The translations under genes were made by a program, and so were the position numbers. From positions 18,255,759-18,319,758 of the forward strand of contig CAIIXF020000009.1 in assembly GCA_903813345.2 (NCBI GenBank): a DNA stretch of 64,000 bases. The letters are read 5' to 3'. Below the pieces are notes generated by a model. That model did not search any database. It was not told where the DNA came from and was given only the letters and a program-made list of their open reading frames with translations. The stretch comes from Owenia fusiformis (Eukaryota > Annelida > Polychaeta > Sabellida > Oweniidae). Position 1 is the stretch's first letter; each line of letters starts with the position of its first letter. Positions 2 through 53,400 of the stretch are shown in pieces.

Positions 2-3000
2 CGCCAACAAACTACATCCCAAACACAGACACTCAAGGAGAAAATTATGGCTCCTGCAGGGGACACTGGTAAATTTTTAGAACTTTTTTGTTAAGCATCA
101 AGCAAAAAAACATACAGGCCCTTCCATTGGACTTCTTGTTTATTAGACCTATATCTATCAAATGCCAGATTCCAAATCTCATATTTAAGGTGTTGATTTT
201 AATAACAAAATTTATATCTTGTTGGACGGCAGTAATTCACTTAGATTTTGAGGTTCTTGACAATTTCTAAAGATTGATTGAAAAAAGTGTGTATTCTCTT
301 GGTTTAAATTTGGCATCTCAATCATTCACATGGAAACATTCATATTTGCCACTAAATTTTTATGCCTTTAGATAGTTATCGCAGTGAAAAAGTATTGAAT
401 CTAACTGATTGCATTATTTTGAGGTTCAGTCCACTCTTATGAACATACAATCTTGTTGAGATAATCATGAAATGCAATGCATGGTTTGATGTTTATCACT
501 CTTTTGAAGTTTTATATCCTAAACAAAAACATATTTTATATAAACGATGATATATGTACTTACGAATGAAGCTATATTTTAAATATGAGTGAATATCCAT
601 GTAATTTTGTTTTTAAATCAATGTTTCAGCATTCACTATGGGACGGGGTCTAGTTGCCGGAGCTTCTTTACTGGGTATAGGAAGTCTGGCTTTCTATGGT
701 CTTGGCTTGTCCAATCAGGTTGGAGCTATAGACAGAGCTGTGTAAGTCCTACTTCAGTCATATTTTCAAGAGTGTACACTCATACAGTTAATATGCCCAG
801 TTTTGATGGTTTCTTGATTGGGTAATATGTTACATTTTGTAAAAGAGAAGTACCTACACAACATACATGTAGGGTGCATATACACTGAGCTTTTTATCAA
901 ATGTAAATTAAAAAAAGTAAATTTGATGAAATTAGATTCAACCTGGGTAAACAAGCATCTTGAATTTTTTTGTGCTTAAACAATGTTTTAATTTACAGTT
1001 TATGGCCTCAGATAGTGAGGGATCGTATCAAGACAACCTACATGTACTTTGGTGGAGGCATTGCAATCACGGCTGCATCAGCTCTGGCAGCCAGCAGATC
1101 ACCTGTTATCCTGAATTTGATGATGAAAAATTCTATAATGGTATGGATTTTAAACCATTGGATAGCTTGATACTTTTAAACTGCCAAACTAAACAATTAT
1201 GCTTTTTCAAGGTAATCAAAATTTTGACCAACTAATGTTTGTCTATATTTGACCTGCTATTATTGATCCCAGAATGGAGAAATGACAAGTAGGATGCTCT
1301 TAGGGTAGGAAATTTGACAGTCGAGTTTTTATTTTGTCAAAATCCCTACCTTTCCTGTGTGGAGATGTCATCCAAACCTTTGAATGGTGCACTAATGCTG
1401 ATACTAATGTAGGCCATTGCATTAAGAACAATTAGGTTAATAAGCTCGGACATAGTCTAGTTTATTCACAAAATGCACAAAGTTGTTAATGTTATGCATG
1501 GCTGAGACAGAGTCGCGGTGACAAGGCCTGTGAACACTGACTTCATTACGTAGTAAATGATTCTACTTTCAGGCCATGATTGGAACATTTGCAGTTATAA
1601 TCGGCAGTGGTATGGTAGTGAGATCTATACCATATAAGGAAGGATTTGGTGCTAAACAGCTGGCCTGGATGGGACATGCAGGAATTATGGGTGCAGTAAT
1701 AGCCCCTCTGTGTTTATTAGGGGGCCCCATACTGGTGAGAGCAGCATGGATGACAGCTGGTATAGTAGGAGGTGGGTTTTACTTGATACAACATATTGAA
1801 ACTATACAATCTAAGTTACTTTGTCCAGGTCTTGTTTTACACATATTTCACTCTATCGAAAACTTGATTGGACTTGATATTCTTAAATTCCAATTTAATA
1901 GTAAATACTTGCTTGTTCACTTTATTCAATTTTGTTTTTGCATATTCAATATTAAAACTATTAATTATGAAATTTTTATATATATACTTTATAATTTACA
2001 ATTTTGTACATATTATGTAATATGAAATTTTAAAATTAAATAGATTGAATTCAATTATATGCTTAAGTGACATATCAATATACATTGTTCTCGTATTCAA
2101 TTCATAATATAATCATGTACATGTATATTCATAGGTTTGTCTACCATAGCAGCCTGTGCACCTAGTGAAAAGTTTCTCAACATGGGAGGTCCTCTAGCTT
2201 GTGGCCTGGGACTTGTGTTTGCATCATCCATTGGTAAGTGATGTAGCATGGTATTAGGCAGGTCAGATCATTGCTTTATTGTCACTATGATCACAGTAGC
2301 CTACCGAATGTTCTAGACAAGGAAGAAATCCTGATTTTTATAAAATAAAAATTCCAACTTTTAAATGTTCATTTCTTATTTGGAAGAATATACAGTAAAA
2401 CCTATTTCAGTGAACTTCTTTCTTGTGAACACCTGTTTCTCTGTATGGCTACTGTATAAGTTACCCACACTGTATTGAACATCTACCTAAAGTGAACACA
2501 TTTTTGTGGCTCCATAGGTGTTCATTGTACGCAGGTTTTACTGTAGAATGTGGTGGGGGATAAAATGCTCTTTGATATATACCATTCTTAAATTCAAGAC
2601 TTTTTTGAATTAAAGAAAATAAGTGGTAAATTAGTATACTACAGTTGTAATAGTCTAACTGACTAATAAACTTTCATGAGCTCATTGGACTGAGAAAATG
2701 AGAAAGATATATGTATACCATTGTAAACATATATTGGATAACTAATAATGGCCAATCATGTCACTCCACTCATATAATTACTAGAAATGTTATTTTCAAG
2801 ATATCAAATAGTACTCTCCATCTAACTTTCATTTGTGTAATTGAAACAACTAGGAAAATATAATATGCTTTCTCAATTATATAAATATGTATTCAATACA
2901 AATAATAAATAATGACATATAAAAATCACAAAGTTGATTTTATCCAACAATGGCGTTAATAAGGTCATCCAGGTCGTTGGGCTGTTTCTTGTCAACATAT

Positions 3001-6000
3001 GTGCAATCAGCTTCATGTGGGGTGAATATGGGTCTGGTGTAATCTTCTGTGAATCCAGTATCGACAAGGAACTCTCGGATTTCTTTATCATATAGGCTCA
3101 TGTACCCAGCACGGTCACGTGTAAGCACATAGAGTTGACTGCCCTTATTATTGGTCACAACAGAATACTGGTATTGGTCATTCTTTACTGGTCCAAGCTT
3201 TATGATCCAGTCTAAAATACATAGTCATGATACTTCAATTTTCTGAACTCAGTCTTTTCTGTTGGTTTATTTTGTCACTATAGGCTTTGGAATATTTTTT
3301 TTTCAAAAATTGATCTCTTTGCTTTCTTTTCATGTACTAATTTTTTTTAAAGATTTATAATTAAAATACATTGTTCTACTTCGAAGATTAACTTACAAGT
3401 TCCTGGGAAGGGTACATATTCGAGGAGAAGTTGGAATTTTCCAGGAGCAGCAGCTGGGTCAACCTGTGTTGCAGATCCCTCTATCTGTGCCCATTCACCA
3501 GTTGGGGAGCCCAGTTTACCAGAGTTGAATACTGTGATTGTTGTTGCGTTGAAGAGCTTGTCTGTATCATAGAGAAAGATGATCTTAGTAAACATACTGT
3601 AGATCAAAACAACCTTAGGAGTACTGTAGATTGGGTTAATTTGGCGCCCGCTTTAATTTGGCGAATTTGGCGAAATTGAAAAATTCGCCAATATAAATCT
3701 TCGCCAAAATTTAGAATGAATCCCCGGGAATTATCTAGGGTATTTCGTCCAGTGTATTTAGGTCACTTCCGGTTTAGTTTTTTCCAAAAATATGAAAAAA
3801 CGTCTCATAAATTGGCTCAGAACTGGTCAGTCACTCATTAATACTCAGGAAAAACTAGAAAGGAAAAGCGTGGTATAGAAGCAGCATCGATCGAGATGCA
3901 AAATGTAAAGGATGATCTCACAAAAATGTACAAACATGGTGAATATCGCCAGTGGTCCTCAAAAGAAAAAAATGAACATAGCCAAACATGCCCAATTTTT
4001 TGCATATCCGCCAAATTAAATAGCCGCCAATATGCCAAAAATGGCAAAATCGCCAAATTAAGTAGCGCCAAATTAACCCAATCTACAGTAATTATAAGGT
4101 TTCATACTCCTGGATAGTATGCACAGATATATCTTGAAGAATATGTTCTCACCATATGACAAAAATCTTGACATTTTAAAGTCTCTTATTCTATCCTTTC
4201 CAAATATTTTTCAAACATGTACTCTTAGTATTTACTTACAGTCTGCCATTACACAGTGCTGGTTCGCTCCATTAGTGTCCTCTCCAAACTTGTTGGTGTA
4301 CATCTACAATAAAAGGTTTACATAGCCCTGAATAGAGTTAGTTTCAGCTTGATAATAAATGATTTACATGGCCCTGAATATTACATCATGCAAATTGTAT
4401 TTTAATAGCAAAGGGGGAATGAATTAATAGATGTTGAGTAGGCTTGAAATATTCCTCATTATATAAATCTTGATCCTTGAGACATTCTGTGACCTTGATT
4501 AACCTTTTGAATCCCAGGCTCTAAAATCGGTTTTTCATTTTTGCTACCTTTTGACATTTTACTACATATGGATACAACTTTTGATGCAGAACTTAGTAAA
4601 ATTAGATGACAGATATAATTTCTACACATTTTAAAACAATTTTTGTGTTAATTGGATTAAAATTGTTCAAATAAGAGCAATTTTAGTGAACAATTTTGTG
4701 ACAGATTTTCTCGTCACTTTGGGTTTCAAGGTCATTTCTGAGATGACGAGAAATCTCGTCACTCCAGGTAGTCAAGAGGTTAACACCTTTGATAGTAATA
4801 ATCAAATCTTTTGTTGAAGATCTATTAATCTTGCTTTATAATAAAAAAAATTGTTGATTATTATAGCAGAAATATTAACCATACCTGGTACCAGCGTCCA
4901 ACATATTTGTCAGCATCAACTCTATCAACAGTAGGGATTTGTCTTTCATTGAACTCTGGCTTAGGTAGGATAAAGCCTTGAGCCAACCCAATCAGTGCTA
5001 CAGCTAAAATACAGTACATCTTCAGATTCTGAATTCTTCTAGTCCTTTTGTGTCTAGTTGGTGCAAGTGGTTTGTGAATTCTGATTGGAATATTAAGGTT
5101 TATATAGGGATGGTTTATGTAATATAATTGTTGGTTCAGAATGATAAGTTAGCAACTGATAGGGAGATATGATAAGGTCAAAACCATCTCAAAGTTTTCT
5201 TATTTAACACAACCTCTTTGATACTAATATATGCCATGTCATTCATTATATCTTTATAAAATTTAGGTTGCTACAGTTAATCCCTGTTCAATTTATTTCT
5301 ATACAACACCCATTCTTTTTCAATATTTTACTTTTAGGTAATGTGAAAATGTAATTATTTGTATTGGTTTAGATTTGGTGATAAGATTGAGGGATGTGGT
5401 TCAGCAACGAGTTACTGATTTGATGATGTCATCAATGGGTGAAATGTTATGAAACATAACTGCAGTCATGTTTCAAAATGTGACTTCTAAAGCTCACATG
5501 CATCGTACCCACATACTTTTTATTCTGATTTTAAAAAATGCCATGTAAAATTTAAAATAAATTGATCTTGATATTAATGGAGTTTGAATGATATATTATT
5601 TGCTCATGTTTCAGGGTCCATGTTCCTACCACCCACAAGTGCCCTTGGGGCAGGCTTATATTCTGTGGCGATGTATGGGGGCCTTGTCCTGTTCAGTTTA
5701 TTCCTTCTTTACGATACACAGAAGATTATAAAAAGAGCAGAAACTCATCCAGTCTATTCTACAGTTCCATTTGATCCCATTAATTCGTAAGTTTTAAAAA
5801 TACCAAGTTGTTCTTTTAATTTTATTGCACTTTGTTTTTTAGAGAAGCATTTTGATTCATTTAACTAAATCTTAAAAACACTCAAAATAATTCTAAAATA
5901 ACTCATGTAAAAAATGATTGAAATAGCCCAATTTGTTATTGATTATTCAATTACTTGTTTCTCTTTTTCAGATCAATCAGTATATATCTGGACACATTGA

Positions 6001-20400: not shown

Positions 20401-23400
20401 TGTATGTTATATTGAAATGGTCCAGTTGTACAGGGTGTCAAAAAAGTCCCGTCCCCCTCATACAGGTAAAACGTTGATAGATGGTACCTTGAATGATATA
20501 CCATTGGAAAGATCATCCAAAGTTATATTAACTTACCAACTCTGGAGTATTTTGAAATATCAGCCCAAATCCTGTTGATATCATATGACACTTTATTGTT
20601 ATCTGTTGAAAAGTTCTTGATTTAATCAAATTGATTTCTGACATCACATTAAAATTCATTGATCACTATTACTAATATGTAGCAAATTCAACTCATTTGC
20701 TTTTGATGAATTAAATCATGCACCAGCTTCACATTATAAGCTTTCACAATTTAATCGAATTGTTCATTTACATCATATTACAATTCATCATCGCTGGCAT
20801 CTTGTATTGTCTGATTACTGACAGGAAGTTGTTGGGAATTGCGATGGTTACCACGTTTTCCACCCATACGTCGATATATAGACGTGGTTGTCTTTGGCAT
20901 TATTGAATGAGCCGGTTGTTTCCTCCTGATGCAGCGGAACAGGATATATCCCAGAATTATTAGAAGACCTATCGCTAGCAGCACTCCCAGTACAATGCCT
21001 ATGATAGAAACTGCACTATGGGGGCAGTGAAGGGTCTCTTCATTTAGATACTTGAAGTTCTGACCGTGGACATCTGTAGGAGTTTTACATCTGAAAATGA
21101 AATAATTTGAAACATCTGTTATTAAAGACAAAATTACTTTCTCCAAAAATACAGCAGTCGTTTAATAATAAGGCTTCATTCAGTCATATATGTTCGTAAA
21201 TCCTGTAAATATATACTGTGAAGTTTTTGCTTTGCTAGCAAGTTTAACTTCTTAAAGTACATCTTGCTGTTTCGCATTCACAACTGGTTTATCGCTGTAC
21301 ATGTATTTACTTAAAATATTGTGTTGCATCTACACTTCTAGGATTTGTATTCTTATTTTCAAAGCTCTTATGAGGATTGTGTTATATTCTGATAATATAG
21401 AAATCTGGGCAAGGTCCTTGAATTTGAAAGAAAAAATTCTTATGTACAGTACTCACATGATTGAGGTGCTGTTATTAATCACAGCTTCAATAGACCACAT
21501 CCATGTAGCATGGCACGTGCACTCCCAAGGATTCCTTTCCAAAGTTATCACTTTCAGCTGTCTCCATGGTAACAGATGGGGGTGTATCACATCAATGTTG
21601 TTGCTATGAAGATATACCTCTTGTAGTGTTTCCCAGGGAACATGGAATAAATTATACCATAGAAGACGCAATTGATTGTTCTCTAAGTGTATGACATTTA
21701 AATGTTTCAATGACCAAAATGCAGAATGTGGCAAGTCAGTAAGCATATTACCATCCAAGGAAAGTATCTTTAAGTAGGTTAGTGTTTTAAATCCATCGTG
21801 TGGAACTTGCTCTATCTTGTTGTCACCTAGGTTCAGATCATCCAAGTCTAAAGCCGCATTTTCAAATAAAGGCACTGAGGCTAAATTATTATTGCGTAGG
21901 TTTAGCTTGGAGAGGTTTCGCAGATATTGGAATGAGGTATCCCCGATATCAGAAATTGAATTGTTTGACAAATCAAGAATGTTTAATAATGGCAGATAAC
22001 CATAGTAGAATGCTTGTTCAGGTAGAATTCTCATAGAATTACCTGTTAGGTAAAGTTTCTCTAAGCTGGTCAGTCCGATAAAAGTGTGACGTTGGATATC
22101 TCTTATCAGGTTGTATTTCAAGCTCAGCAATTTAAGTTTTGAAAGGTGTCTGAACGCCTCGCTTACAACAACTATTGCATTGTTGCTTTCCAGGTATAAT
22201 TCCTCCAAAGTGTCATAAATTATTGATGTGATTTGGGTGATATTATTTTCGTTGATTAACAAATGTCTCGGGGGATAATTTCCTGGTAGGCATGCTGGGA
22301 TGGTTTCAAGTCCAATGTTGTTACACGTCACAGTTGGTGCACCCTCTAACATCTGAAATTGGCAGCCATCTGGTGGTATACATCCTGGTTCTTTTCCACT
22401 ATGAATTCCATCTGATGACTGGGTAATTGTCATGAAAACTATTATGAGTCCCTTCAGTGACATCATAGTTTTTGGTTAATTAAGGGAAAGGATTGTTTAT
22501 CTACATTGCTGTGTGCTGGATTCCTTCTGAAAGTTTAATAGAATGGCAATTATTTTAAAATATAACTCTACGGGCTTCAGGAGGATTCTTACTATGATCA
22601 AGCTTTCTGTACAAAATGCAGATAATAGTAGAAAATAGTCATTGCATAATTCTATCCAAAATTTGGATTTTCTATTCAGAAACTAAAATAATCATCAATA
22701 TAATCAAAACAATCAAACGTGTAAACCTTTAAACCTAAATCATTGATATGAATACAGCTTCATCTCTCTAATTAATTCATTCTTCCAAATCATGATGTTC
22801 TTCTACTACTCCATTTTTCTCTCCTGACACTTTAATACTATTTTACAGGGCGTTCAGTAAGTAAAGCTAATTTTGCTCTCAAACTTTTATTTTTTGTCAT
22901 TTATCTTTCAAATTTTCAGTGAAGAAGCATTTGACATTTTTCTAACTGCCCTGAAAAATTAAATAAGATATGATGAATAATAGCAAAACAATGGTTGTCA
23001 TAGTAACGTGAATACGGGTTCTGCGGAGCAATTTCTTTCTTTAATAAAAATGTTATAATGCAATGAAATTGATTAAGATTAATGCTGCATATGTCTTTGT
23101 TTGCTATGGCTGAAAGTCACAACAAATATAACCACAACATACACAAATATGATACCATGGCAACAGTAGTATATGACATCACAGACAGATGATACCCTAC
23201 AACAGATGGAATGATCCAGAATGATCCATCAGACACTGCTCCATGACATCATTAAAATCATGGCTGCCAGGATTGCCAATGGAAGCAAAATGAACAATGA
23301 AATGAAACTACAATTGAGAAGTAGCATCAGATACAATGTGTTGCTAGGGAAATCCAAGCAGGATACCATTAGGGATATCCAAAAACGCTGGAGATGGAGG

Positions 23401-35400: not shown

Positions 35401-38400
35401 ATAATTACACCGAACAAGATGACACAGTGCTAATTACTTCAAATGCTCATAATTTCAGTCCTTACTATGAATTAATTGCATTCATTGTCTGTCATGTAAC
35501 TCCTTAACTCTCTGTTGAATATAACAAAGTACTTTGTAAATTACGTCATTATGTCATGCTCAAGAAGTGGGGACATATTGCTACAGCTTCCAATTTTAAG
35601 TGATAATATGAAACTTGTATAACATAAATGTGTTGCACATTTCGCACTGTTGGGTTCTGATATCATAATCAATGTTTTATTTCAAGATATGGGATCTGGA
35701 AACATTAGAATGTGTGCGCAACTTGGAAACATCTGGGGGAAGTGTCTACTCTATAGCTATTACTAGTCACCACATTCTATGTGGGACATATGAGAACTGC
35801 ATCCATGTAAGTTACCATAGTTATCAACTCTATAGCTATTACTAGTCACCACATTCTATGTGGGACATATGAGAACTGCATCCATGTAAGTTACCATAGT
35901 TATCAACTCTATAGCTATTACTAGTCACCACATTCTATGTGGGACATATGAGAACTGCATCCATGTGAGTTACCATAGTTATCAACTCTATAGCTATTAC
36001 TAGTCACCACATTCTATGTGGGACATATGAGAACTGCATCCATGTAAGTTACCATAGTTGCCAAAGTATACTGTAATATACTGTATCTAAAACATTATAT
36101 GCTACATGTACCTTCAGAATTATATATGTTTAAGGAAAATAGGATTATCATAAAACAAATATTTCATTCTATTTTCTGTGAATACCCATTGCACTTTAAC
36201 AATATTGCAAATTATCACTTGTGAAACATGCACAGGTATTCAGTCACCTCAATACAATGAAGTATTTGTATGTTATTTGTTTATTTACTTCTATTGTGAT
36301 AAACCCCTCGTTTTCTAACTCCTGTTTTACATTCTCTATTTTGTCTTATGTATTAAATGCAATGTCTGTATTAATGCTTTTATGAAATTAGAAATATGTG
36401 TAATAAAGAAAAATCACTAAAATCATTTATCATGTATATAATAGATTTGTCAGCCTCTGTAGGGGACACTTTCGTCATACTCTATCTAATCATGAAAACG
36501 TTTAAAGGTAATTTGACTACTCTGTTTATAATTGCGGGTTAAGTAATGATGTTTCTACGTCATACAGTGTCTAAATGACTGTTAATAAGTCTACCTATGA
36601 AGCTCAGTGCTGAAAGAGTAGATTATCTATGACGCAGTTGCCTATTTAATTCCTGATTCAGGCAAGACTAATTTGATTGTTGTATTAAGGAACATGTTTA
36701 ACTGAGTGGTCAAAAACCTGTACAATTCAAGACTACAGTGACGGTGTTCACTTGTATGACCTTGAATCAGTGAACACTTGCAAATCACTTACAGATAGTT
36801 TATCCTTTACTAAACTATATTACTACATGTACATACATGTATATTGTACATGTCACATGTACATACATGTATATTGTAACTGACATGTCTTAATATAAAA
36901 TGAAGATTCAAATTAATATATACATGTATACATGTGTGTATTTCAAATAATAAATAAACAAACAAACAAACAATATGCTTCTTTCTGTAGTATGATGCTG
37001 ATGATTAAGTTCCTAAACACTGGAATTTTTGTCAAAACTATTTCATTGATTAAATACAAGTATATATCAATATTATGGGCTCTAAATTAGCATCTAATAG
37101 TAAGCCCATAGCAATATGACATAGTATGACATTCAAGTTGAAAAGTGTTCACGTGCATTGTACTTGACTTTCAGGTTTGGGAATTGGATGGGTTCCAACA
37201 GATTACAACACTTATGGGTCATAATGGGACAGTCTATGCCCTTGCAGCCCTACAAACCCCCTCAGGCACAAAGGTCTTCAGTGCCTCTTATGATAGGTCA
37301 TTACGGGTAAGAATTTCATTCAGTATGATTTACTATTGTTCTTTATTTCCATTTGGTCAAAGGAACAAGCTTATAACACAAGATTTCACACGCAGGCATT
37401 TCAAATAGGATGTGTTTTTTTTCAATGTGAAATATAGCTGAAATGTGTGAAATCTTTTGAGGAATAAAGAAAAAGGCCTCACAATAACACCCTACCCTAA
37501 TAATGAAAAAGAAATTAAGTAAGCATTTTCAAATATTTTCTAAACATTATGCCTCATGCTGAAAAGTCACTGTTTGTCCATCTGTCCGTTTGGTCATTCA
37601 TATTTCACTCCATATCTCAGGAAATATTAAATAAAGTACATGTTTTTGATTGTACAGCATTTTGAGTCTTGACTGCATGTTTGTTTACTTGTTTTTCTCA
37701 CTTATTCCACTCTAAATGACTCTATTCCTCACTTCAAAACTTTACTTTTGTGACATTTGCAACTTGATTTCTCTTTCTGATGAATAATAAGCAAGAATAA
37801 CAGCTGCTTACAAATCAAACAATAAGTTTTGTTTTTTTAATCATCCGGATATTAATAGCTAACCGCTTAAGGCATTATGAATTGTTCTTCTGTTGAGAAG
37901 ATTTTCTGTACAAATATGGATATATCTAACTTGATGTCGCTTAGAGGAGTCTATTCAGGCACTTGCACGATTGAAATATGTCAGAAATGTTGTCAAGATT
38001 TGTGACATTAAACTCCACGTCTTTCCAGAAGCTTTGCTTTTATGATTCCTAAATCAAGTATTGCTTTGAATCATGATGTCTTAGAAAGAGAACAAACTAT
38101 TTAGAAATTCTAAACTTCATGAAATTTTCTGATACTGACTCCCTTAGTAAGAACTCAGCTGTCAGTCGATTATGTCCCAAGCACTGTTGAAAAAATTAAT
38201 GTTTAAATGGTAGTTTTTTTACAGCATGAAAATTATGTGTTCAGATTGTTTATTTCCATACACTTAAACAACTACAAAATTATGTAATTCTGAGACATAT
38301 TACTGATTGAAATTCAAATTCAAAAATGAAATATTTTTCAGTCCACAACAGATTATGTTGCATCACTTTTAAAAATTTCTATAAATGCTTTTAAAAAGTG

Positions 38401-41400
38401 AACACAGGTAGCAAATTCAAATTTTGTTTGGACATCTGCCTCTACTGAAAGTCTCTTAGAGCTACTGACTTTGGATAGTCTGTGGACAGCTTATATATTT
38501 AAATAATCTAGCTTTATGAGGCGTTTACCTTATGGAACATAACTATTTATGTTACCATGGCAACCTTTGGATGCTATGACAACATAAACAATATTCCATG
38601 CCCTAATAATTGAGAACTAAAGTATTGGAAAATATGAGATAAGGCTGAAATCAGAAAATTGAATTAATGCCCAGAATGAAATCTAAGGTCTAAATACATT
38701 TGGGATAATTCATGGAATCAAGGTCTTTGTTATATTTATAATATCTTAAAATAAACTATTGCAAATGTTGTAGACCTCATTTATCAGATTTTCCCTAAAG
38801 AATTTCTGCATTGATAATGAAACTGACATCATATATTAGGTCTTTCATACCTCATTTCTTACTCCGTACCAGTATCTTATGAGAAAAATAAGTTTATTTC
38901 GGCAATTGTAAAATTCATTGTTTATTCCATAGTTACTGTGATATTCAGAGGATATCATGTCAAAATAAAAAAAATTTAAACAGTGGAATAATGTTTTATT
39001 TTCGGCAAGCATTCATTAAGCCATTGAATTTGGCTTTTAACCATTCAATGAGATACTGTCCCCTTTCCAATGGTTCACTGATTTTCACTCAAAAGGAGGC
39101 TGACAGTAACAATGACTGATCAGTCATTTGGAAGTTGGATTTGAATCATTTAAACTATGGACTAAAAAGAACATCTTATGATTTACTCATGATATAATTT
39201 TTATCCACTCCTGGATATTGATATTGATATCTGCCTACCTTCGCTCAACAGATATCAATTACCATATATGGATAAAATCATATAACTCATAAATTATCCT
39301 CTATTTATATCAACACCAAGCAAATAATTTCAGTGCCAGTATAGATAAAAATAAGTCAACTGAACATAAAATTCCATAATTATTATTAGCGTTTATTTTT
39401 TATTGAAGATTGAGATGAAATTATTTATAGTTGGTACAGTATATAGAATTTCACATTAAGTAGAATAGAATACTGAAGTGACGACTTTTATGATTTATTC
39501 CTGTATTTAATCTGAGAAAAGTCATGATGTAGTCCTGTATGCAAGCACGATACATCATTCAAATCTATTTTGAATCTGCATGTAGTCAAATATTTTGATC
39601 ATCCCATTTTTACAACAGATATTAAGTCCATGATGGTTCTGCCTTTCTTTCAATAGTTTGACCTATTCGGTAACATAATTATCTTGTCTTGAGGAATATT
39701 TAGCTGTTGGAGGGTACAGTTTCATGTCTTTACTTTAATCGGATAGATCTTTAGTAATCAGTATGCCCACCGTTTACTGGGCATTTAGAGCAACAAGAAT
39801 CATGCTGGATTTGATTTAAGAAAGTTGCATTTGACAATCTCTTCTAATGAGTGTCTCTAACATCGTGGATTTCTAGAGATTCTCCCTTGAGGAGGTCACG
39901 TATCTGTCCAGTGAGTATACCCCCTCCCCGTATGCTCAGCACAATTTAGGTTTAACTTCAATTTATACCAATGTTTATAACTATTTTATTTGAATTAGTT
40001 ATCAATTATATCTGATGGGTGTTAAGACAAATGAACGAGGCATGACGCTTAATTTTGACAAATCACTGGAGATGTTTGACTTGAACACAGGACTAGGCTG
40101 ACAATAGTCTAGGTTGATTTGATTAGAGTCAAATGTTTATATTCATTTCTTTCCAACTTGTTCCAGGATGTCAATTAAGACTCCCAACATGGCTGGATCT
40201 TGTTCTAAACGCTGTAGATCTATCTTGTCATGGACCTTGTGTTCACCATCTGGGACTCCTGAAAAAAAGATTCATGTTTGAAATTATATTCATTGATGTA
40301 ACAGTCACTTTTAGCAAGTACCTCTATCTATAGAGATAGACGTACTTGCTTTTAGTTACTAGTAATATTACAAAAATCCTTTTAGATCAATGGTGGATGG
40401 GTGTTCTACCAAATAAGAAAAATATAATATGTAGAATAAATGTAAAACTTTCGAGATGTCTTTTCAGTATGTAGCCTGCCAAAGTAATTTAAGATTAACT
40501 AAGGACTAAACTGAGTTAGCATTCATTTAGCATCATTTACATTTTGGTCAACTATTGAATTAATTTCTTAGCCTTCCAAGAAATCTAATTTTACACCTGG
40601 GGCTCTGAAACTCTGAAGGAAGAAAAAATATCCATAATATAATTCTAGTTGAAAAGGAAGTAATTATGATGATTAAAAGCATTTCATAAAAGATAGAATA
40701 GCAATGATTTCAGGTGATTTTAGTTGTCAATTTTGATAACTACTGTTTCAGTTTCAAAATGGCGGTCATACAAAGTATGGAAGAGTGCATTTCAGTTCAT
40801 TACATTAATGAATGTATTATTTAACAAAGAGTAGATAATTGTTTTGTTGACCAATGATGTTGACCAATGGTAGGTAGGCGATAATTCTCACATATACCTT
40901 GGACCATGTTTTACCTCATTAGTGTGGTATCATTGAGATAATGATTTGATAATTACGAGCAGTAAGTCATCTATAGATGATTATTTCACTTAACTTATAC
41001 CCACTTAATCTCTGACTTGTGAGGACATATCTGGTATTTCATTTAAACTTTATCCTGATTTAAGAGAGAAAATATAGGGATATCCAGGCTTATACGTATC
41101 AAAACAAAGGGATCGCTATCTAAATATAGTGTCACCGTTTTATATATAAGTGACATCTCGAATCAAATTATACATCTTGATTTTTCCCCGTAGGTTCTTC
41201 CTAGTTTTACACATGCATCTTAAGAAGAATGAAAAGCTCCAAGGAATGAGCCTGGAATCAGATTGGCAGGAAATTATATTTCTGATTAATGTTTTAAGAT
41301 CCTATTGATGGTGTATTGACTGTATTTAACTGGTCCAAATATGTCTTTAAGCAATTCTGTCAACCTTGCCACTCAGAATACTATAAAATTGTGGAATACC

Positions 41401-44400
41401 AGAATGCCCAAACTAGTATTCCTATGTGTACTCTATCCCTCATTGAAAGCAATCATTTATATGAAAATATAGAAAAAATAAAAAAAAGTGGAAGATCACA
41501 CAGCAAATAATAAGGACCTATAATAATATACTCATATGAATCTCTCAGTTTGAAATCTTTGAAAATCTTTATTTATGTCTCTCTTTTATGTCTTCTTTTC
41601 TCTGAAATAGCAAAAACTACCCAAAAAGCTATTTTACCTGGCCTTATATCCCCATTTGGACTATTCTTTTCTGTAGTGCTATAATATTCATGAAAGGAAG
41701 CTCTTAAAGTGTTATTATTTGGTTAATGAATTCCATCATTACACTTACATGTATCTGATGAGCCATAGTTACAAAAGGAGTGGTATCGATATGGACAATT
41801 TTTTGAACACACGTTTCTCTTAAAACCAAAAATTAACACATCGTCAATTTAATGGTCATCTTTTGAATGGTAACAATATAATTTGAAAAATTTAGAAAAC
41901 ACATCAAATACTTGTTTTGTTCTTGGTATCATGTTTCCAGAGTGACTTGAAACATTTTTCCGAACCTCATTGGAACAAAACGACATAAACACAACATGTT
42001 TAGATCTCTCAATATTGTACAAAGGAAATTTTGGTTGATTTTAAAAAAGTATCTTGTTAATGAAATAAAAGGTTTATTTTGATTTTTATCTATTTTGGGG
42101 GAATTTTGTTTTAATTTTTTGAATTCCTTTGTATAACTATAATATTGAGAGGTCTAAAAACATGTTGTATATGCTATTTGGTTCCAACAAGGTTCGGAAA
42201 GACATTTTATTTCATTCTCAAGAATTGGTAGAAAGGAGCAAAAACAATTGCACTAAAAAAAAAAAAAATGTTAACAAAAACAGTTATATAAAATATTTCT
42301 AAATAATTTTCGCATTAAATTGTTGTCAATCAGTCAACATTACATAAAATACCATGTTTTTTTACAGAATGTTTTCAATGATTGGTTTTAGAGAAAAACA
42401 TTGTTGAATTCAGTTCTCCATATCGACACCACTCCTTTGTTATATACATTTTTGTACTATATTTTTCCACATCCAGAGGAGACAATAATCCTTGTCATTG
42501 ATAAAGGGGCTATGACCAAGAATCGGTTAATAAATGGGGTTGTGTAAGCGAGCCACTGGCTATAGAGGCAGGGGGTATTTCCTTGAAGGTAAATGCAATT
42601 TATTTTCTAATCTGATGAAAATCAGTTGAGAAAGATGAGGTGAATTAATCAAAATCTATGTCACAGTTTAATTTATTTCTTTTTAAATAATCAGGAACTT
42701 GTTTTGCTTGCTATTAACGAGAGTTTCTGAAGTCTTTGATGTTCAGGAAAATAACATGAAATCTCAAGCCATCCGTATGATTGTACATGCTTGATCTGGA
42801 GTGATGAATAACAACTGAATGGAGTGATATAATTATAGCCTCATATCTCAGCTATTGCTCTATCAAGAGTTAAATGTTAATCAAAGGATTGATATGGAAA
42901 GAATGGCCACCATGCTGAATTATGCGGATATTTTGAACTTTTGTTGTGATACGAGGGTTGTCCCACGAGTTATTGAATTCTGAAGTTATAGCTCTGTAAC
43001 TAGTTTCTGGAATCTAAGGTTGATCATCACTAATGTTGAAACAAACACTGATTGATATATCAAATTCCAAAACAAATTATAATGTCATTTGATTTTGATA
43101 TCTAATACTTTTGTGGTAATGTCTAAAAGATAAAACATGGAATCTATACCCCCCCCCCCCCGAGGTGTCCTTTTCATATCTCTTGTAAATTTATATGGTA
43201 TGAAAACTAGAATTGAATAATAAATTGAAAATTGAAATTGAATTCACAATACATATGTACTGGTCAAAAAAGTGTAGTTACTTATGGAGCATTTAGTTTA
43301 GGACATCTGGAACTACCCTCGTATTATACCAAAACAAGATCAGAATTAAAGAATTAGGAAATGATGATTGGATAGAGTTAGACTAATAAGTCTGAAAATT
43401 ACACAAGACCTTAATCCACCCATATGATAGAACATGCTTGTTCTGGAGTTATAAATGAAAAATGGATGGAGTGTTATAATTAAAGCCTCATATGCCGTTT
43501 CATCACGAGACAACTCAACGAATGTTTCTCCAAGGATTGATATGTAATGAATGAACAGAATATTAATTACATTTCAAACTACAATTTATTTTGACATTGA
43601 CTAAAATAACAGACCTTGATTAAAGATGTTAACAAGCACTGATTCAGAGAGTTTTTAGATTTTTTTAAAGGATAGGTATCGATATGGAGAACTGAATTCA
43701 ACAATGTTTTTCTCTTAAACCAATCATTTTGAAAACATTCTGTAAAAAAACATGGTATTTTATGTAATGTTGACTGATTGACAACAATTTAATGCGAAAA
43801 TTATTAAGAAATATTTTATATAACTGTTTTTGTTAACATTTTTTGTTTTTTTAGTGCAATTGTTTTTGCTCCTTTCTACCAATTCTTGAGAATGAAATAG
43901 AATGTCTTTCCGAACCTTGTTGGAACAAAATAGCATATACAACATGTTTTTAGACCTCTCAATATTAAAGTTATACAAAGGAATTTTTGGTTGATTTTAA
44001 AAAGTATTCAAAACATTAAAACAAAATCCCCCCAAAAAAGATAAAAATCAAGAAAAACCTTTTATTTTATTAACAAGATACTTTTTTAAAATCAACCAAA
44101 ATTTCCTTTGTACAATTACAATATTGAGAGACCTAAACATGTTGTGTTTATGTCGTTTTGTTCCAATGAGGTTCGGAAAGATGTTTCATTTTACTCTGGA
44201 AACATGATACCAAGAACAAAACAAGTGTTTGATGTGTTTTTTAAAACAATATAGATGAAAGTATGTATATCTATTTCAAATTATATTGTTACCATTCAAA
44301 AGATGGCCATTAAATTGACAATTTGTAAGATTTTCAGAAATTTTTGATGACTGGTTTAAGAGAAACGTGTGTTCAAAAAGTTCGCCATATCGATACCCAT

Positions 44401-47400
44401 TCTTTTACAAAATATAGTTGAGAGATGAGATAGAAAGAATAAAAGTCAATTGATTATATAAGAAAGATAATCATTTACGGATTCCTTCAGTCATGTTTCA
44501 GTAAATCAGTTTTTGATAGGCAGTGTGAATATTACATACTATTTAGTTGGTGAAATATTTTGCATTTGGGCATGTTAAAATATATATTTGAAATTCTTGA
44601 AATTTGTGATTATTATTTTATATGTTCTTATAGATTCATCATTCAAAGACAATCAAATCAATTTGTAAGAGGGTCTGTTGAATTGAGCTGCTCAGAGCTG
44701 CAGAAAGGTGTCAGAAGAAACTAAATCAAGAAATTAAAGAAAATATATAATGACAATATGTTTTATAAGGCTAGCATATTGCCCCTTTAAAGCCTAATTG
44801 GTGATAAGTCATGTGTCACTTTGATTTTCTAAAGCTACAGTAATCTGGATATATGAATATAAGTATGTACAGAACATTCAATTCCTGAATTTACTCAGCC
44901 TAAGAATACAAGAAGAAAATCAAAGGTGACTACCCTACAGTATAGCAAATTCAAAAAATGAAACATCTCTATGCTTCCATCATTCCAAATGACTGCACTT
45001 TCAAAGGTTATAACCTCCCCTCCACCTTTTCCAACCTTCTATCATTAAGTTTCTGTGCAAGGCCCATACCATAATCCATCCAAGCAAATGTCTTGGTGTT
45101 TTAATCAGATAGACAAGACTGTGAAGGTCATTAATAGGGGAAAGCATGTCTTCATTATTCACTGCTAACATGTTTGTTTAATTAATTTTCTGAGATTTGA
45201 GACGCACAAGAGTGTTGCTGATTAATTGGGTACAATTCACTCCATGTAGGTTGCTAATCCTATGAGCCAAATTTAAAGTGTCTTATATTGATAATGAACA
45301 TATTACAATGTTACATAATGTTAGAAGATGCAAAGTAAATGATATTTGTTGTTCGTGTAACATGTATTTTTCATTTAATGCTGCAACAAGTACACAGGTA
45401 CCAAAAAGTGCCACGCCCACTTTTTCCTAAATGTAGTTGTTTGTGACTATATTTGATAAATATTATTGATTTGCGTGATCATCACATAAACTTTTTAGTG
45501 CTTTAGTTTGAATATATACATTTTAATACAATTTTTGACAAAGTAGTAGCCACAAAATCTCAACATATTTGCAAATATTTCAATTTGAGTACTAAGGGAC
45601 ACATTTGGGAGGGGGTCAAATTGAGACGATTGTGAGATATAAATACTGTTTCCATGGTAACCATTATAAATTAAAGATTGGAAATTTCTGGCACTGACTA
45701 AACATGGCGTACCCTACCCAATATAAAACTAAGAATTAATAGCATGTATTAGTATTATTTTTATTGGGTGGTATTAAACTACCCCAAAGGTTTTCTTGGG
45801 GTAGGGGTATAAATTGATCTGAGGGCCGTCTGCCACCCCTTTGTGAAGTCCAACTACCCATAAAGTGTCCAGCATAATCATACAGATTGTTTGAAATATG
45901 TTGGAATATGTGACCTTCCATGACAGTAGGTGTTACAATTATCAGAGTGGGCCATAGTCTCAATCTATATCAAATGTCAAAATCATTTTTAAAATCTGGA
46001 ATCTGGAGTCTCAAATTGAACTAATATAATATCAACAATATAGTTCTTTATAATTTGGGAGTGTTGATTGTCCATCTGCATTTCTAAATGCATGTATTTT
46101 TGATAAAGTCAAAATGATTCCTGTTTTTGAGTGGGGATTTCATAGTGCTTCAAATGGGATTCTTTGCTGAATTTCTTATGCATGTTTGAAATATGTTGGA
46201 ATATGTGACCTTCCATGACAGTAGGTGTTACAATTATCAGAGTGGGCCATAGTCTATCTATATCAAATGTCAAAATCATTTTTAAATGAAAATCTGGAAT
46301 CTGGAGTCTCAAATTGAACTAATATATATCACCAATATAGTTCTTTATAATTTGGGAGTGTTGATTGTCCATCTGCATTTCTAAATGCATGTATTTTTGA
46401 TAAAGTTAAAATGATCCCTGTTTTTGAGTTTTTTACAAACCAAGAAGCAGGCAGTTTAAGTAGTCAAAATTGTTCAAAATAATATGTAAATATATATTCA
46501 CATTTCATTCTGGATGGGAATAAAGGTAGAACTTTAATCACTTACTTTTATGGAAGCCCATGGTTTTCCATCTTGACTCAAAGCTTGATGGACGTGCATG
46601 AACAGCCACTGCAAGTACACATACAAAGTTTTTTTTACATTTACCTAGAATTCTGCTTCTTGCAAGCTATCTAGCGCTCCAATGATTTTAAAGAGTTTTG
46701 TCTTATCATTTAGTTTTAGTTGGTTTATTGATATCATGGTCAAACTTTGGGCTTTTTCACTCTTATGATTTTGTTTCAGTTCAATTTATTTTGGTTTCTA
46801 AATAGCTCCACCTATGTAGCTTATTGTTTTAGAGCATAAAATACAGCCAATTTTCCCTAGGGTGTAGTGTCGCAAATGATAATGAGCTTTTGAAACCCTA
46901 GTCCATATAATGGATTTATCAATGGATTTGGATTTTCAAAATGGCTGCTTGATTCAAAATGGCCACTATTTTTCATGCAAATTTCTTTTTGATAACTTAA
47001 GTACCATGTAAAGGATATGGTCCAAATTCTGAAAGCTAATATCATTAACCTATGTTTAAGAGGAAATTCCCAATATGACCACTCTTCAAATGACCTTCAT
47101 TTTTTAAAAGAAATTTCACAGGGTCATGCTAAGGGCTGCAGGGCTCTTAAGAAAGAAAGCTGAATTCAAAATGGCCGCCATTCCTCAGGAGAAATCTCAT
47201 AATGCAAATAGCAGTTATCAGATTTGGTCCTAATTTTATAGGTTAATGACTTATGGTCAGAACACCTCTACTCAAGAAGGATATTATAGTATGGCATCAT
47301 GTCACATCATGGGTGTAGATTTTGCAAAAAGGAGAATATACTTATATCTACTGCTATACTTTGTCCTGGTTATTTCTGTCCTGTTATATTAAAAAAGATG

Positions 47401-50400
47401 ACTGATTTGATAAAAAAAAGAATTGCTGTTTTCTGTTTTTTTAACATTTAGATATTTGATATCAGGAAAGATCATGTTTCAACTAATGATTAATATGTTT
47501 TTAGCAAGTCAGTAAATTAGAATTAATTTTCTAGGAAATTCATGTGATCAAATAAACTCAGTTTTGATTGAAAGTCAGGCTCTGACAATTTTAGAATCAG
47601 CAGCTTTGTTTTGAATCTCACCAGAGACTGTCACAATATGTACAATATACTGAGAATATGTACAATATGTACAATGCAGTGATGATATGTACAATATAAT
47701 AAGAATATGAAATACTTGTACAATCTTGTTTTAACAAAAAGTATGAGGTGGGGTTTATGGTGAAAAAATGTCAGTTTTATCATTTTTATCACAATATGCC
47801 ATGTCTCGATGATTTCTCTAAACAGTTCCAAGAGTTCTGATTTCGTGAATATGACTTGATTTTTAGATAAAAGTTAATTGGCAACAATTCTGTTCATTTA
47901 CACTTCTAAACAATTTCCCTGTCCTAGTGAACACTTCTCTCTAGTGAACTCATGTACTTAGTGAACACCACAAGGCACACTTTACATCACCATAAAATAG
48001 GTTTTCTCTGATTTGGTTGTTAAATGCCAGTGTGAGGACAATGATGAAGATCTCCATTTTATGATTTATGGCATATATATGACCTGAGATTCTATTCTGC
48101 CTGTTGCAAAAGAATTCTTCACTTTGTAACTCTAATCTTTTAGCTATGATCAAAAAATTATTGGTCATATTTTATCTGTTAATACCATAGAAATCTCAGA
48201 ATGTTAGGCATTAAAATCTAAATTCAAAATGGAATAAATTCAGCAAGACCACAAAAATGACACCCTTTTAAGTGTATGGCTCATGTTTTAATTTGAATCA
48301 TAAAATTGTTGATTTTTTATTTATAGTTTATGTGTAACTTGTATTGCCTTGTATTCTGTGGCAAAGATCCATGTGGAGTATGGCAAGTGATTTTAGACAG
48401 TCATATCTTTCACCATGAGTACTTTCTTGGTATAAATACAGTGGTTTTTATTATTAAAACAATATGTTTGCTTTCAAGTGAAGTACCTATGATGATAAAA
48501 ATAGCAATCAAACAATTCGAAAAATTATGAATAGGGACCCCATGTCAACATTTTTTTCAAAATATTGAACCTATTTACTCAAAAGATGATCTTCTCTCTC
48601 TGATTTTTACTGCATGAAAAGATTATTCAATAAGGGGTCTAAAACATCTTCAATAATAGAATGGTATTGAAAGTCTAGTTTTGAAGATATCAATTTTCGA
48701 TGACCAAAATTATGCTGAAAACAATGGATAGCACGAGTTTTCCCTATGGGAAAATAGCATGGAATGTATATGATTTTTAACTTTAAAGCATTTCAATACC
48801 CATCCCCTTTTCAGAAATTGAAATTAGAAAATAAGACACATTTTTTAAAAAGTGCCAAAGTGGGGCCCCAATCCATAATTTTTCAGAAAGTTGGATTGAT
48901 ATTTTACTATCATGGGGACTTCACTTGAAAGAAAACATGTTTTAATAAAAACGACTGTATTTATGGCCAGAAAGTACTCATGGTGAAAGATATGCCCCGT
49001 TTAAAATCACTTGCCATACTGCACGTGGACCTTTCAGTAACATTCAACAAAATTGAATGCAACTATATGTTTCTCACCTTAAGCTTACTTCCTGTAAAGA
49101 CAAAGTATTTGTACAGTGTATATGTATTGTCATAGGAATTAAACATAAAATGAAGAATGAATGAATTAAGATAAATATTGAATAAAAAAAGATTAAAATA
49201 CATACCAAGTAGACTTCCCACTAGGATGATTAACAAAGACTTCTGCATGATTTCTTGAGATTCAAGACGTTCACAATGTTTTTCAGAGATTCAGCAAATA
49301 TGTAAAGATTCATCCAAATCTGCTGCTTTATAGCTCTGTCATTCTCTTCATTCACCTCCCACTCAAAGCTGACAAATAAGAACAAATGTATATCACATCA
49401 TGAATCGAGTTAGCACTTATGAAGGTTAACGTGTCATTGAATTCTGATTTGGAATTCTGATTGGTTACTTGTTGGCATGAACTGTAACAATAAGCGTGTA
49501 ATGATAATGGCAACGGGATGTTATTATATTTGAGTATTTTGTAAAAACAGGAATTTGGTTGTTAAGTAAAGCTAATGACGGCTTCATCTATTTTCATTAT
49601 TTTACATTGACAGACATAATGTTTCCCAGTTTCCAGATATACTTATTGTATAATAAAAGGACTTCATATATTTCATGATCAATTTATGAGCTGATGAATA
49701 ATTACAACTTGAGGTGGTTTAATTAGTTTGTCATTTTTCTATTTAAACTTCTCATAATGTTTAGCTCCCATTTAGCCAAATAATGAAGATCAATGTATTA
49801 TATGGATGTATATATTTAATGTATTTGAAGATACAGGGTGTCAAATAAGTCTCGCCCCCCCCCCCCCCTCTACAGCCAAAACCAAGATATTTGGTACCAA
49901 GTGTAATATACCATTGGAAAGGTCTTCCAAAGTTACGTTGATTGGCATATATCTGACACATGTCAATCAATCTCACAAATTTTTACATTGTATCAATTGA
50001 GGAGACCATAGCCCTAGAAACATGGCAATTTGGCAGGATTTTAAGTACCCTGCGTGCAGAGTCTAGTTAAACTACTACTGAAGACCGAACGAATGCAAAG
50101 GGTAGATTTTAAGAATCAGATATAGGAAAGGTCAAAGAAACAAAAGTTGATTAAACATGTGTATGGCAATGAATTCAACCAATTTCTGGAAAGGGTGAGA
50201 TGTATAGAAAATAGAGGTGCAAGGAAAGTGCAGTGGTGAAAACCTTTTTGTAACAAGTGGAATGCGAAAAGGATTAACTTTTTGACGTATTTCTGAGGTC
50301 ATATCCTTGTCATTTTGACGCAAAAAAGCTGCTTAAAAGAGGGTACGTTAGCCATAAAGGACATCATAAAAATATAGGTAAATTTCATCCAAAATACTTG

Positions 50401-53400
50401 AGAGTTGGTGAGTTAACATAACTTTGGATGATCTTTCCAATGGTATATCACACTAGGTATCATTTATTAAGATTTTAGCTGTAGCAGGGGGACGGGACTT
50501 ATTTGACACCCTGTATATATTAATTTGTATGATTGTTTCCAGTGTTACATAGCAGGCATTAACTTAATATATAATAGATGCATAACATTATAAGTTATTG
50601 AATGATTTGAAGTGCAATACAGGATATATTCTGCTTGAAAAATTCCGTATTGGAATGAGACGAAGTCGAGTGCCAATACAGAATATCGAGAGCAGAATAT
50701 ATATCCTGTATTGAACTTCAAATCATTCTATAACGTTTTTATTGTGTGATCCTCTGTATTGCTACTGAGAATGTCCCTCCGTACCCATATTTACTGTATT
50801 GCGACAGAGATGATCAATGGGGACAATCTCAATAGCAATATAGATTGGTACAGCACAAGAACTGACCAATCAGAAGGCTTCATTTAACAGATCATACAAT
50901 AATGCTATAGCTCATACTATACTACATAATGTCTCATACAATACAAGCACAATACCTTATTTATGGTACATCTATCAAATACTATACAGTATATAATATG
51001 TCAACAGTATTTGACATCTCTCATGAAAAGGATACACAATGTCTCTAATATAATACATGCATAATATCTCATACAATACATGTGTAATATCTTATACGAT
51101 ATAATACAATACATACAGAATATCTCATATAAAACATGAACAATGTCTCATACAATAAGAGTTTCCTTTTTTCTTTGTTTTAGGTTTGGAGTATGGACAA
51201 TATGATTTGTACACAGACACTTGTTAGACATCAAGGTAGCGTGGCATGTCTTGCAATATCACGAGGGAGAGTTTTCTCAGGGGCAGTAGACAGTACAGTC
51301 AAGGTAGATATCTTCCATATTTCTTTAAAGCAGTTTATGTCGTCATGAAGAAGTGTGTACATATTGTAACTGCTCCTATTTTTAGTCACCAGCATTTTAA
51401 AATTGTTATTTTTCACCTGTTAACATTTAACTACATTTTCAATTGCAACCTCAGGTGGTGACATTTTGTCATGTTAATGCATTGTATGTATCTTCCATTG
51501 ACTCTTTAAATGTCATAACTTGTCATATTAATCTTTTCAGAAATAGAGTCAATCATGCTACATTTGCGTATACCTCTAAATTGATAACTTTATCATTCAC
51601 CATAGGGTTTTCATGAATTTGATTGTGTAAAACGAGGGTTCAATGCGGGAAATAGCGATGTCAACAGCTATGTCATTTGGAGAATTAACATTTTCTCTCT
51701 TAAAAAACTTCAAAAATGCAATTTGTGCTTGCCATCATTTCTGTTATGTGTTAACAGAAAATACACAAAAGTTGCAGTCGACATATGAGGACATGGTTGT
51801 TTCCCACACCGAACACTATCTACAAATGAAAAATCATGAGAAAGTTATTCCTGTCAAAAATGATAGCTTAATTTTTATCTCACGCTGTATATGTGTGTCT
51901 TTGATTATGTCCAGATAATGCCACTTATATGGATAGAAATTGTCAACCGAAATGGCGGAATATATCAGAAACATTTAAGAATAAAAATTAAGTTGATTAG
52001 ATATATTATCACTGAGATATTTTAATAGTACTGGGAGTGCATACACAACAAAGGTTAATACCCTCCCTGAAATGCCCCCATAATATCATGAATGAAAAAT
52101 ATAAACAACAAGCCCTGGTATTCTATGCCTTGGTCTATTTTATATAATTACATTGGTAAACATTCATAAGATTTTGTAACAAGGAGGATTGGCTCCCAGA
52201 GTGCACCACCGATATTCTGTCCCATATATGGGTATGTCGTAATACAAAATTCGAATTCAAACAGCCGCCATTTTGTTCACTTCAACATTTAAATCGTGAA
52301 TTTTGGTCTTATTTCCAAACGAAAAATTCCAAAACTCACAAGAAATGATCGAGATATTGGTTCAAATCTTTTGAACTGTTTATTTTGAATTTATAGTCGG
52401 TTTTAATTTCAGAAAATAACGACATTTCGACGTTTTCATTGTTGGAAAATATCGAGTTTCGATCCTGGGAGCCAATCCTCCTTGATTTTGTAATAACAAA
52501 CTCAAACTGTTAATTGTTGATCATCGGTCAGTCTATCATTTTATCCAAAGCTCAACATTGACATATTTAGCTTTAGCAGATCTTTAGCAAAGATTGCACT
52601 TCATCCAATTACCGCAAAATATGAATTGAATCACGGTTACATCGTGACTGCAAGCATTTATCAGTGAAAGAAAGGCATTAATATTAGGACAAATTAAGCT
52701 TGTGATGATTCTGATATCCTTAATGTAGATTGATTAGAAAGAAATGATGTTCAAAGATGAAAGCGATGGAGTTGATATTTTCCTGAGTTAAGAGTATCAA
52801 CAGGCTACTAAGAAATAATACCATCTTGGTGAACACGATTAAGTGAAACATAAGTGAAATAAAATGAAAAAGAGTGAACAAGCTTGTAGACTGAAATCGT
52901 GAAGCAATATACTGATGTCTTTGGCAAAAATCAGAATAACATCTAAGACTATGCATTTGCCTATATCATAGAATCAAGTATTTTGTTACAATTCTATGAT
53001 GATAAATTAACTCTCTATTTTTTCTTGCGTATCATATTTAAATTCATTCAATTTGTTTAATTATATATTGTGTATTTAATGTAATATCATATAATGCTCA
53101 TAATGTGCTAGACGCCAATGAGGCTCATCTCATTGTAAGGTGTAAAATTAATGTTTTATAATTAAATTTAGACTACATCTAAGACTGCCTATACCAGTTG
53201 TTGCCAAGTAAGCAATAAGCATTACCCTGACTGAACTTGTGAATGTGACAATGGTATTGCTCAATCTCAAAACAATGCTTACATATATCAATAAAGTGTA
53301 TGGTTGACACATGCTACATTTCTATCAGTGCATTAATGTTGATGTCAAAATGTTTCTAAACTTAACTGAAATTCTAAATTTTTTTGAAAATTGTATTTAT

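Follow-up and report, generated by a model that had tools for sequence, protein, structure and literature searches.

Insect iPTH, first named PXXXamide in cuttlefish, activates an insect PTH-type receptor (PMC7224569), and the QSGamides of lophotrochozoans, the oyster forms of which are given elsewhere (PMC8398477), have been described as iPTH orthologs, with a receptor pairing that is unproven there (PMC8557429). The CCWamide/agatoxin-like precursors, in turn, are usually encoded by three exons, with the signal peptide in the first, the mature peptide in the last and the basic cleavage site interrupted by an intron (PMC8557429). Here we compare with these systems a candidate peptide gene on the minus strand of a 64,000-nucleotide stretch of genomic DNA (contig CAIIXF020000009.1; the whole stretch is called the window, and all positions refer to it unless a contig is named), in which three short exons nested in a TRAF7 intron join into a putative precursor of 73 residues. 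We consider it probable that this is a real, single-copy, three-exon gene that would encode a secreted, amidated regulatory peptide, probably acting on a G-protein-coupled receptor (GPCR).

Gene model and predicted precursor

On the plus strand, WD40 exons of TRAF7 type are found between 33478 and 37306 and reappear at 51184 to 51306, the latter being 88% identical over 41 residues to a fragment of human TRAF7. The candidate gene is contained wholly within the intervening intron (37307-51183), antisense to its host. Exons 49248-49206, 46608-46546 and 40258-40143 are joined through GT-AG introns, both of phase 1, and supply 43 + 63 + 116 nt of coding sequence, that is, 73 amino acids followed by TGA; with a slash marking each junction, the minus-strand letters read ATG...G/GTATGT, ...GCAG/TG...A/GTAAGT and ...TTTTTTTCAG/GA...TGA. 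The parts of the locus, in minus-strand order after the host intron, are:

37307..51183, plus strand: host TRAF7 intron, 13,877 bp, with WD40-repeat exons on either side (the one ending ...YDRSLR, the other starting VWSMDNM...)
49327..49332, minus strand: TATAAA, 84 nt 5' of the ATG, weak evidence
49206..49248, minus strand: exon 1, coding portion, with M1-L14 plus base one of the V15 codon, covering most of the signal-peptide-like start and ending in donor G/GTATGT
46609..49205, minus strand: intron 1, phase 1
46546..46608, minus strand: exon 2, from the remainder of the V15 codon through K35 to base one of the R36 codon, with the VHA end of the signal peptide and the spacer
46550..46594, minus strand: spacer peptide R20-H34, 15 residues
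46546..46549, minus strand: codon of K35 plus base one of the R36 codon; 40258-40257, beyond intron 2, finish the KR site
40259..46545, minus strand: intron 2, phase 1, with repeats and a hairpin inside
40143..40258, minus strand: exon 3, remainder of R36, 34-residue peptide, GKK and TGA
40155..40256, minus strand: predicted mature peptide V37-V70, 34 residues, presumed amidated
40146..40154, minus strand: G71-K72-K73, presumed to supply the amide and the two basic residues that are trimmed
39985..39990, minus strand: AATAAA, 153 nt 3' of the stop, weak evidence

The precursor thus consists of a 19-residue signal-peptide-like start, a 15-residue spacer, KR, a 34-residue segment free of cysteine, and GKK directly before the stop. 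The start has a 12-residue core of mean hydropathy 3.1 followed by a V-x-A site, and was called a signal peptide by rule of thumb, without a dedicated predictor. Two codons are completed across junctions, that of V15 over the first (G/TG) and that of R36, the arginine of the KR site, over the second (A/GA). A preliminary description of this DNA had put forward the antisense nesting within one TRAF7 intron, the exon coordinates, splice dinucleotides and phases, the 73-residue product with its split codons, and the sequence of VHA-ending start, spacer, KR at 35-36, cysteine-free 34-mer and GKK at 71-73, all of which direct reading bears out. It had also taken a TATA box and an AATAAA as framing the gene; both are present, although such hexamers are frequent in the host intron (2.6 per kb for TATAAA, 1.7 per kb for AATAAA) and therefore add little.

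Among the splice sites, the exon 3 acceptor scores 9.96, with only 8 sites on the strand as good, and the exon 2 donor 8.1 (48 sites); the exon 1 donor scores 6.4, equalled by 129 minus-strand sites of the window, and the exon 2 acceptor 5.65 (282 sites). When the genome (498 Mb in 525 contigs) was searched with the whole product at E up to 10, the only matches were exons 2 and 3 of the candidate locus itself, and no second copy was found; the failure to recover exon 1 points to limited sensitivity of this search for short exons. As DNA, exon 1 has a single match in the genome.

Coding signal and grammar search

The region has a GC content of 0.31, and exons 1, 2 and 3 reach 0.395, 0.444 and 0.431, so that the segments are GC-richer, as had been claimed, in all three cases. 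Among 200,000 random window triples from the TRAF7 intron, which were not conditioned on open frames, 0.11% matched the summed GC and 0.0085% matched all three values. A codon score was trained on 733 codons from seven TRAF7 exon segments and two long open reading frames (ORFs) of the window. At 0.149 bit per codon the candidate outscores each of the nine leave-one-out controls (-0.094 to 0.119), and its summed score over three exons was matched by 0.01% of 20,000 null combinations. Not one of 3000 open stretches of the TRAF7 intron was as coding-like as exon 3. In a harsher test, which excluded the training and candidate exons and left exons of other genes unmasked, 37 of 9158 open stretches of 38 codons in the window did as well as exon 3, as did 13 of 2136 when GC was matched. 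The codon usage of the candidate looks coding-like, mainly in exon 3.

We also searched both strands of the window for two- or three-exon models that combine a start resembling a signal peptide with a dibasic site, a cysteine-free peptide of 15-60 residues and a G[KR][KR]-stop end, which returned one model, the candidate. Any model at all was found in none of 1500 order-3 Markov null windows, in one of 1500 of order 5, and in one of 1000 windows resampled in 400-base blocks; the reversed window gave none. With looser splice and signal cut-offs, block-resampled nulls yielded models at rates of 1/400, 2/300 and 1/100, and the real window still gave the candidate alone.

Within intron 2, a dispersed repeat of ~740 bp occurs as an inverted pair, at 41773-42438 and 43667-44406; it has at least 91 matches genome-wide (40 of 3818 first-look candidates having been scored), and a tandem 297-nt unit (1.8 copies, 95% matching) lies near exon 2 at 45888-46429. 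About 55-92 nt upstream of the intron 2 acceptor at 40258 there is a near-perfect hairpin (40313-40350, minus strand), for which a stretch of 76 nt has a folding energy of -28.1 kcal/mol (z -6.3 against shuffles, none of 200 folding as well) and the surrounding 159 bases have one genome match; it is possibly a splicing element. No Rfam family was found in the window at gathering scores. Elsewhere in the window, the long ORFs that served as coding controls (337 and 122 aa; 20778-22466, minus strand) resemble by eye a leucine-rich-repeat membrane protein, and ORFs at 1576-5790 on the plus strand look by eye like exons of what is presumably a GHITM/Bax-inhibitor-type membrane protein.

Relation to described peptide families

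No Pfam family matched the precursor at E up to 10, nor was any other protein domain found in it, and the PDB returned no related match, the one weak hit (E 0.48) being to a bacterial sensor kinase. Six fragments of the peptide gave no match in the full text of the papers searched, a search that left figures and supplements outside and so does not show absence from print. The description of the peptide as apparently undescribed is thus uncontradicted by Pfam, PDB and literature text; figures, supplements and animal sequence databases fall outside what these searches covered. Shuffle alignments were run against 25 known peptides in two modes, global and local, with the best eight rows per mode reported. 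VIP and MCH gave the best global alignments (scores attained by 3.2% and 3.3% of shuffles), PTHrP the best local one (5.6%). As these values carry no correction for the 25 peptides tried in two modes, none of the alignments is convincing. Nor does the predicted peptide convincingly resemble any other secretin-class hormone.

Close in layout are the precursors of iPTH/PXXXamide/QSGamide, a family that the preliminary description had not named; they share with the candidate a signal peptide, KR, one long peptide only and G followed by two basic residues (PMC7224569, PMC8398477, PMC8557429) and, as far as their published parts show, are likewise cysteine-free. In contrast, the SD dipeptide near the N-terminus that marks iPTH (PMC7224569) is absent from the 34-mer, the mildly conserved Pro at -4 is not there, the C-terminus reads LEQV where the beetle peptide ends in PGRIamide, and the beetle precursor extends beyond GRR whereas the candidate stops directly after GKK. 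Since the SD motif, the Pro at -4 and a PGRI-like end are all missing, we do not file the candidate under iPTH, a decision made on these published marks, most of them lacking here.

The exon layout of the CCWamide/agatoxin-like precursors and their intron-split cleavage site are both like those of the candidate. The peptides themselves differ, CCWamides having eight conserved cysteines and the candidate none, and the intron enters the basic codon after its second nucleotide in the CCWamide/agatoxin-like precursors but after the first here. Because a split cleavage site is already known in those precursors, we regard it as a trait typical of such genes and not as exceptional.

The CRF, DH44 and ELH peptides are long, amidated, cysteine-free and helical, as the candidate would be if, as presumed, it is amidated. 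CRF-family likeness was nonetheless not found by Pfam, the local score against CRH being attained by 8.7% of shuffles, and neither DH44 nor ELH was among the eight best alignment rows per mode. The Platynereis DH44 precursors, moreover, hold 13 and 16 copies of their peptide (PMC3890597), against one in the candidate precursor. Vertebrate PTH and PTHrP are suggested by KR immediately ahead of the peptide, by an EHxxxHDK motif seen by eye, which resembles PTHrP, and by the length of 34 residues; this likeness was supported neither by Pfam or PDB nor by shuffles, of which 38% attained the ungapped score for PTHrP and 69% that for PTH, with 13.5% for the global PTHrP alignment. PTH and PTHrP genes also have an intron near the cleavage site, as the candidate does; neither hormone is known to be amidated at residue 34. 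The Pro-amide C-terminus of calcitonin/DH31 (scallop forms end in SPamide) is not found, as Val precedes GKK. PDF/cerebrin peptides are short, about 17-20 residues against 34 here, with no Pfam match and no place for PDF among the eight best rows.

Interpretation, animal lineage and significance

If the hormone-precursor reading is right, the gene would be transcribed and spliced, the signal peptide removed after VHA, and the chain cut after KR by a prohormone convertase; KK would then be trimmed and Gly71 converted to an amide on Val70. These processing steps are those of standard prohormone chemistry. The mature peptide (predicted isoelectric point (pI) 4.44, charge about -5, computed monoisotopic mass about 3861.05 Da when amidated and 3862.03 Da as the free acid) may be mobile at its N-terminus and helical at its C-terminus: a single-sequence AlphaFold2 model of the peptide plus GKK places helices at 14-19 and 21-36 with a mean predicted local distance difference test (pLDDT) score of 76.5, and its first ten residues are of low confidence (pLDDT 52). 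More tentatively, it might act on a GPCR, most plausibly of class B1 (secretin type), which we propose because class B1 ligands are often about 30-45 residues long, amidated and helical at the C-terminus, features that suit the candidate.

Several points weigh against this reading. Expression, processing and conservation are all putative, and the grammar cut-offs were fixed after the candidate had been seen. Exons 1 and 2 are weakly coding on their own, being equalled by 4.4% and 16% of open stretches of the TRAF7 intron. The joined exons score 0.077 per codon when read antisense, above zero, and 0.013 and 0.044 in the other frames, so that part of the codon score is base composition. When the grammar also accepted a G[KR]-stop end and the splice and signal cut-offs were relaxed, 11 of 60 null windows yielded models, and the real window gave 29 on the plus strand and one on the minus. 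The hydrophobic moment of the whole peptide is 0.13, with 59% of shuffles as high, so that "amphipathic", as the peptide had been called, is not supported for the whole and is borderline for the last 13 residues (0.39, attained by 5.5% of shuffles). As for a receptor, class B exons were picked out as single exons by HRM and 7tm_2 profiles; nine HRM matches exceeded the cut-off among the 36 listed, which speaks for the reading, but since these are exon-level matches and adhesion GPCRs can also carry HRM, they give no count of class B1 receptors.

The locus could be explained as a chance assembly, in which a selective reader joined three unrelated open intron segments into a plausible precursor. 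The choice was made post hoc among many windows, and at about one null match per 1000-3000 windows, some 7800 such windows per genome would be expected to yield a few false models; together with the weakness of exons 1 and 2, this lends the explanation some weight. We hold it to be rather unlikely, as exon 3 alone is unusually coding-like and starts at one of the strand's 8 best acceptors, and all three exons have raised GC. Alternatively, the gene may be real and its product no neuropeptide but a secreted peptide of gland, epithelium or defence that shares the secretory route, since nothing in the sequence would fix the site of expression; the negative charge and low pI speak against a cationic antimicrobial peptide, KR and GKK fit prohormone processing, and we judge this very unlikely. 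Least credible to us, and highly improbable, is a divergent iPTH/PXXXamide/QSGamide or PTH-type peptide, a ligand of a protostome PTH-type (cluster B) receptor: the shared layout, the motif seen by eye and the local PTHrP score favour it, against which stand the missing SD dipeptide and Pro, the LEQV end, the unremarkable ungapped and global scores and the empty Pfam and PDB searches. The hormone-precursor reading is in our assessment the likeliest and a probable one: of the interpretation first offered, the spliced amidated-peptide precursor is supported by a grammar rare in null sequence and by coding-like codon usage; the amphipathicity is weak and the molluscan framing probably wrong. That the candidate is, beyond this, the first member of a spiralian family not yet described and the native ligand of an orphan class B1 receptor, overlooked because its three short exons lie antisense in an intron of a conserved gene, would be a decidedly unlikely extension.

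The molluscan setting is contradicted by RGWamide-type clusters in the genome. The pattern RGWGKR has 26 matches (23 for the control pattern), and the evidence lies in the clusters, not in this total: two clusters of three lie on contig C5 (C5:24995208-24998919), on the same strand and separated by ~3.7 kb. One of them has the form of a precursor, in which KR and the three RGWGKR repeats go with a signal-peptide-like start of its own; the other is in an exon whose repeats come after KR. Either two separate genes or the duplication of an exon may account for the pair. PGWGKR has one isolated match (control pattern 1) with no APGWamide cluster found, and an APGWamide-repeat protein query gave 48 matches at 26-46% identity, with no APGWamide precursor in the 5 places examined. 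COX1 was not found in the genome, and telomere repeats in nine contig-end stretches, one of them consisting of N only, did not help to place the animal. RGWamide precursors are known from annelids, nemerteans and brachiopods, APGWamide being the molluscan ortholog (PMC8557429); the assembly of Owenia fusiformis is given as 505.8 Mb with 12 chromosome-scale scaffolds, in a paper that also describes RNA-seq of fourteen life-cycle samples (PMC9977687). With RGWamide clusters present and no APGWamide cluster found, the source is probably no mollusc and probably an annelid, brachiopod or nemertean.

If real, the gene would add one more amidated peptide, of unassigned family, to the annelid-like (or brachiopod or nemertean) repertoire, and, as amidated peptides restricted to one lineage are common, it would by itself be a modest addition. 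It would also provide a candidate ligand for class B1 receptors that are still without a known one, and the case would show how ORF-based annotation may miss peptide genes that are built of short exons and lie antisense within introns.

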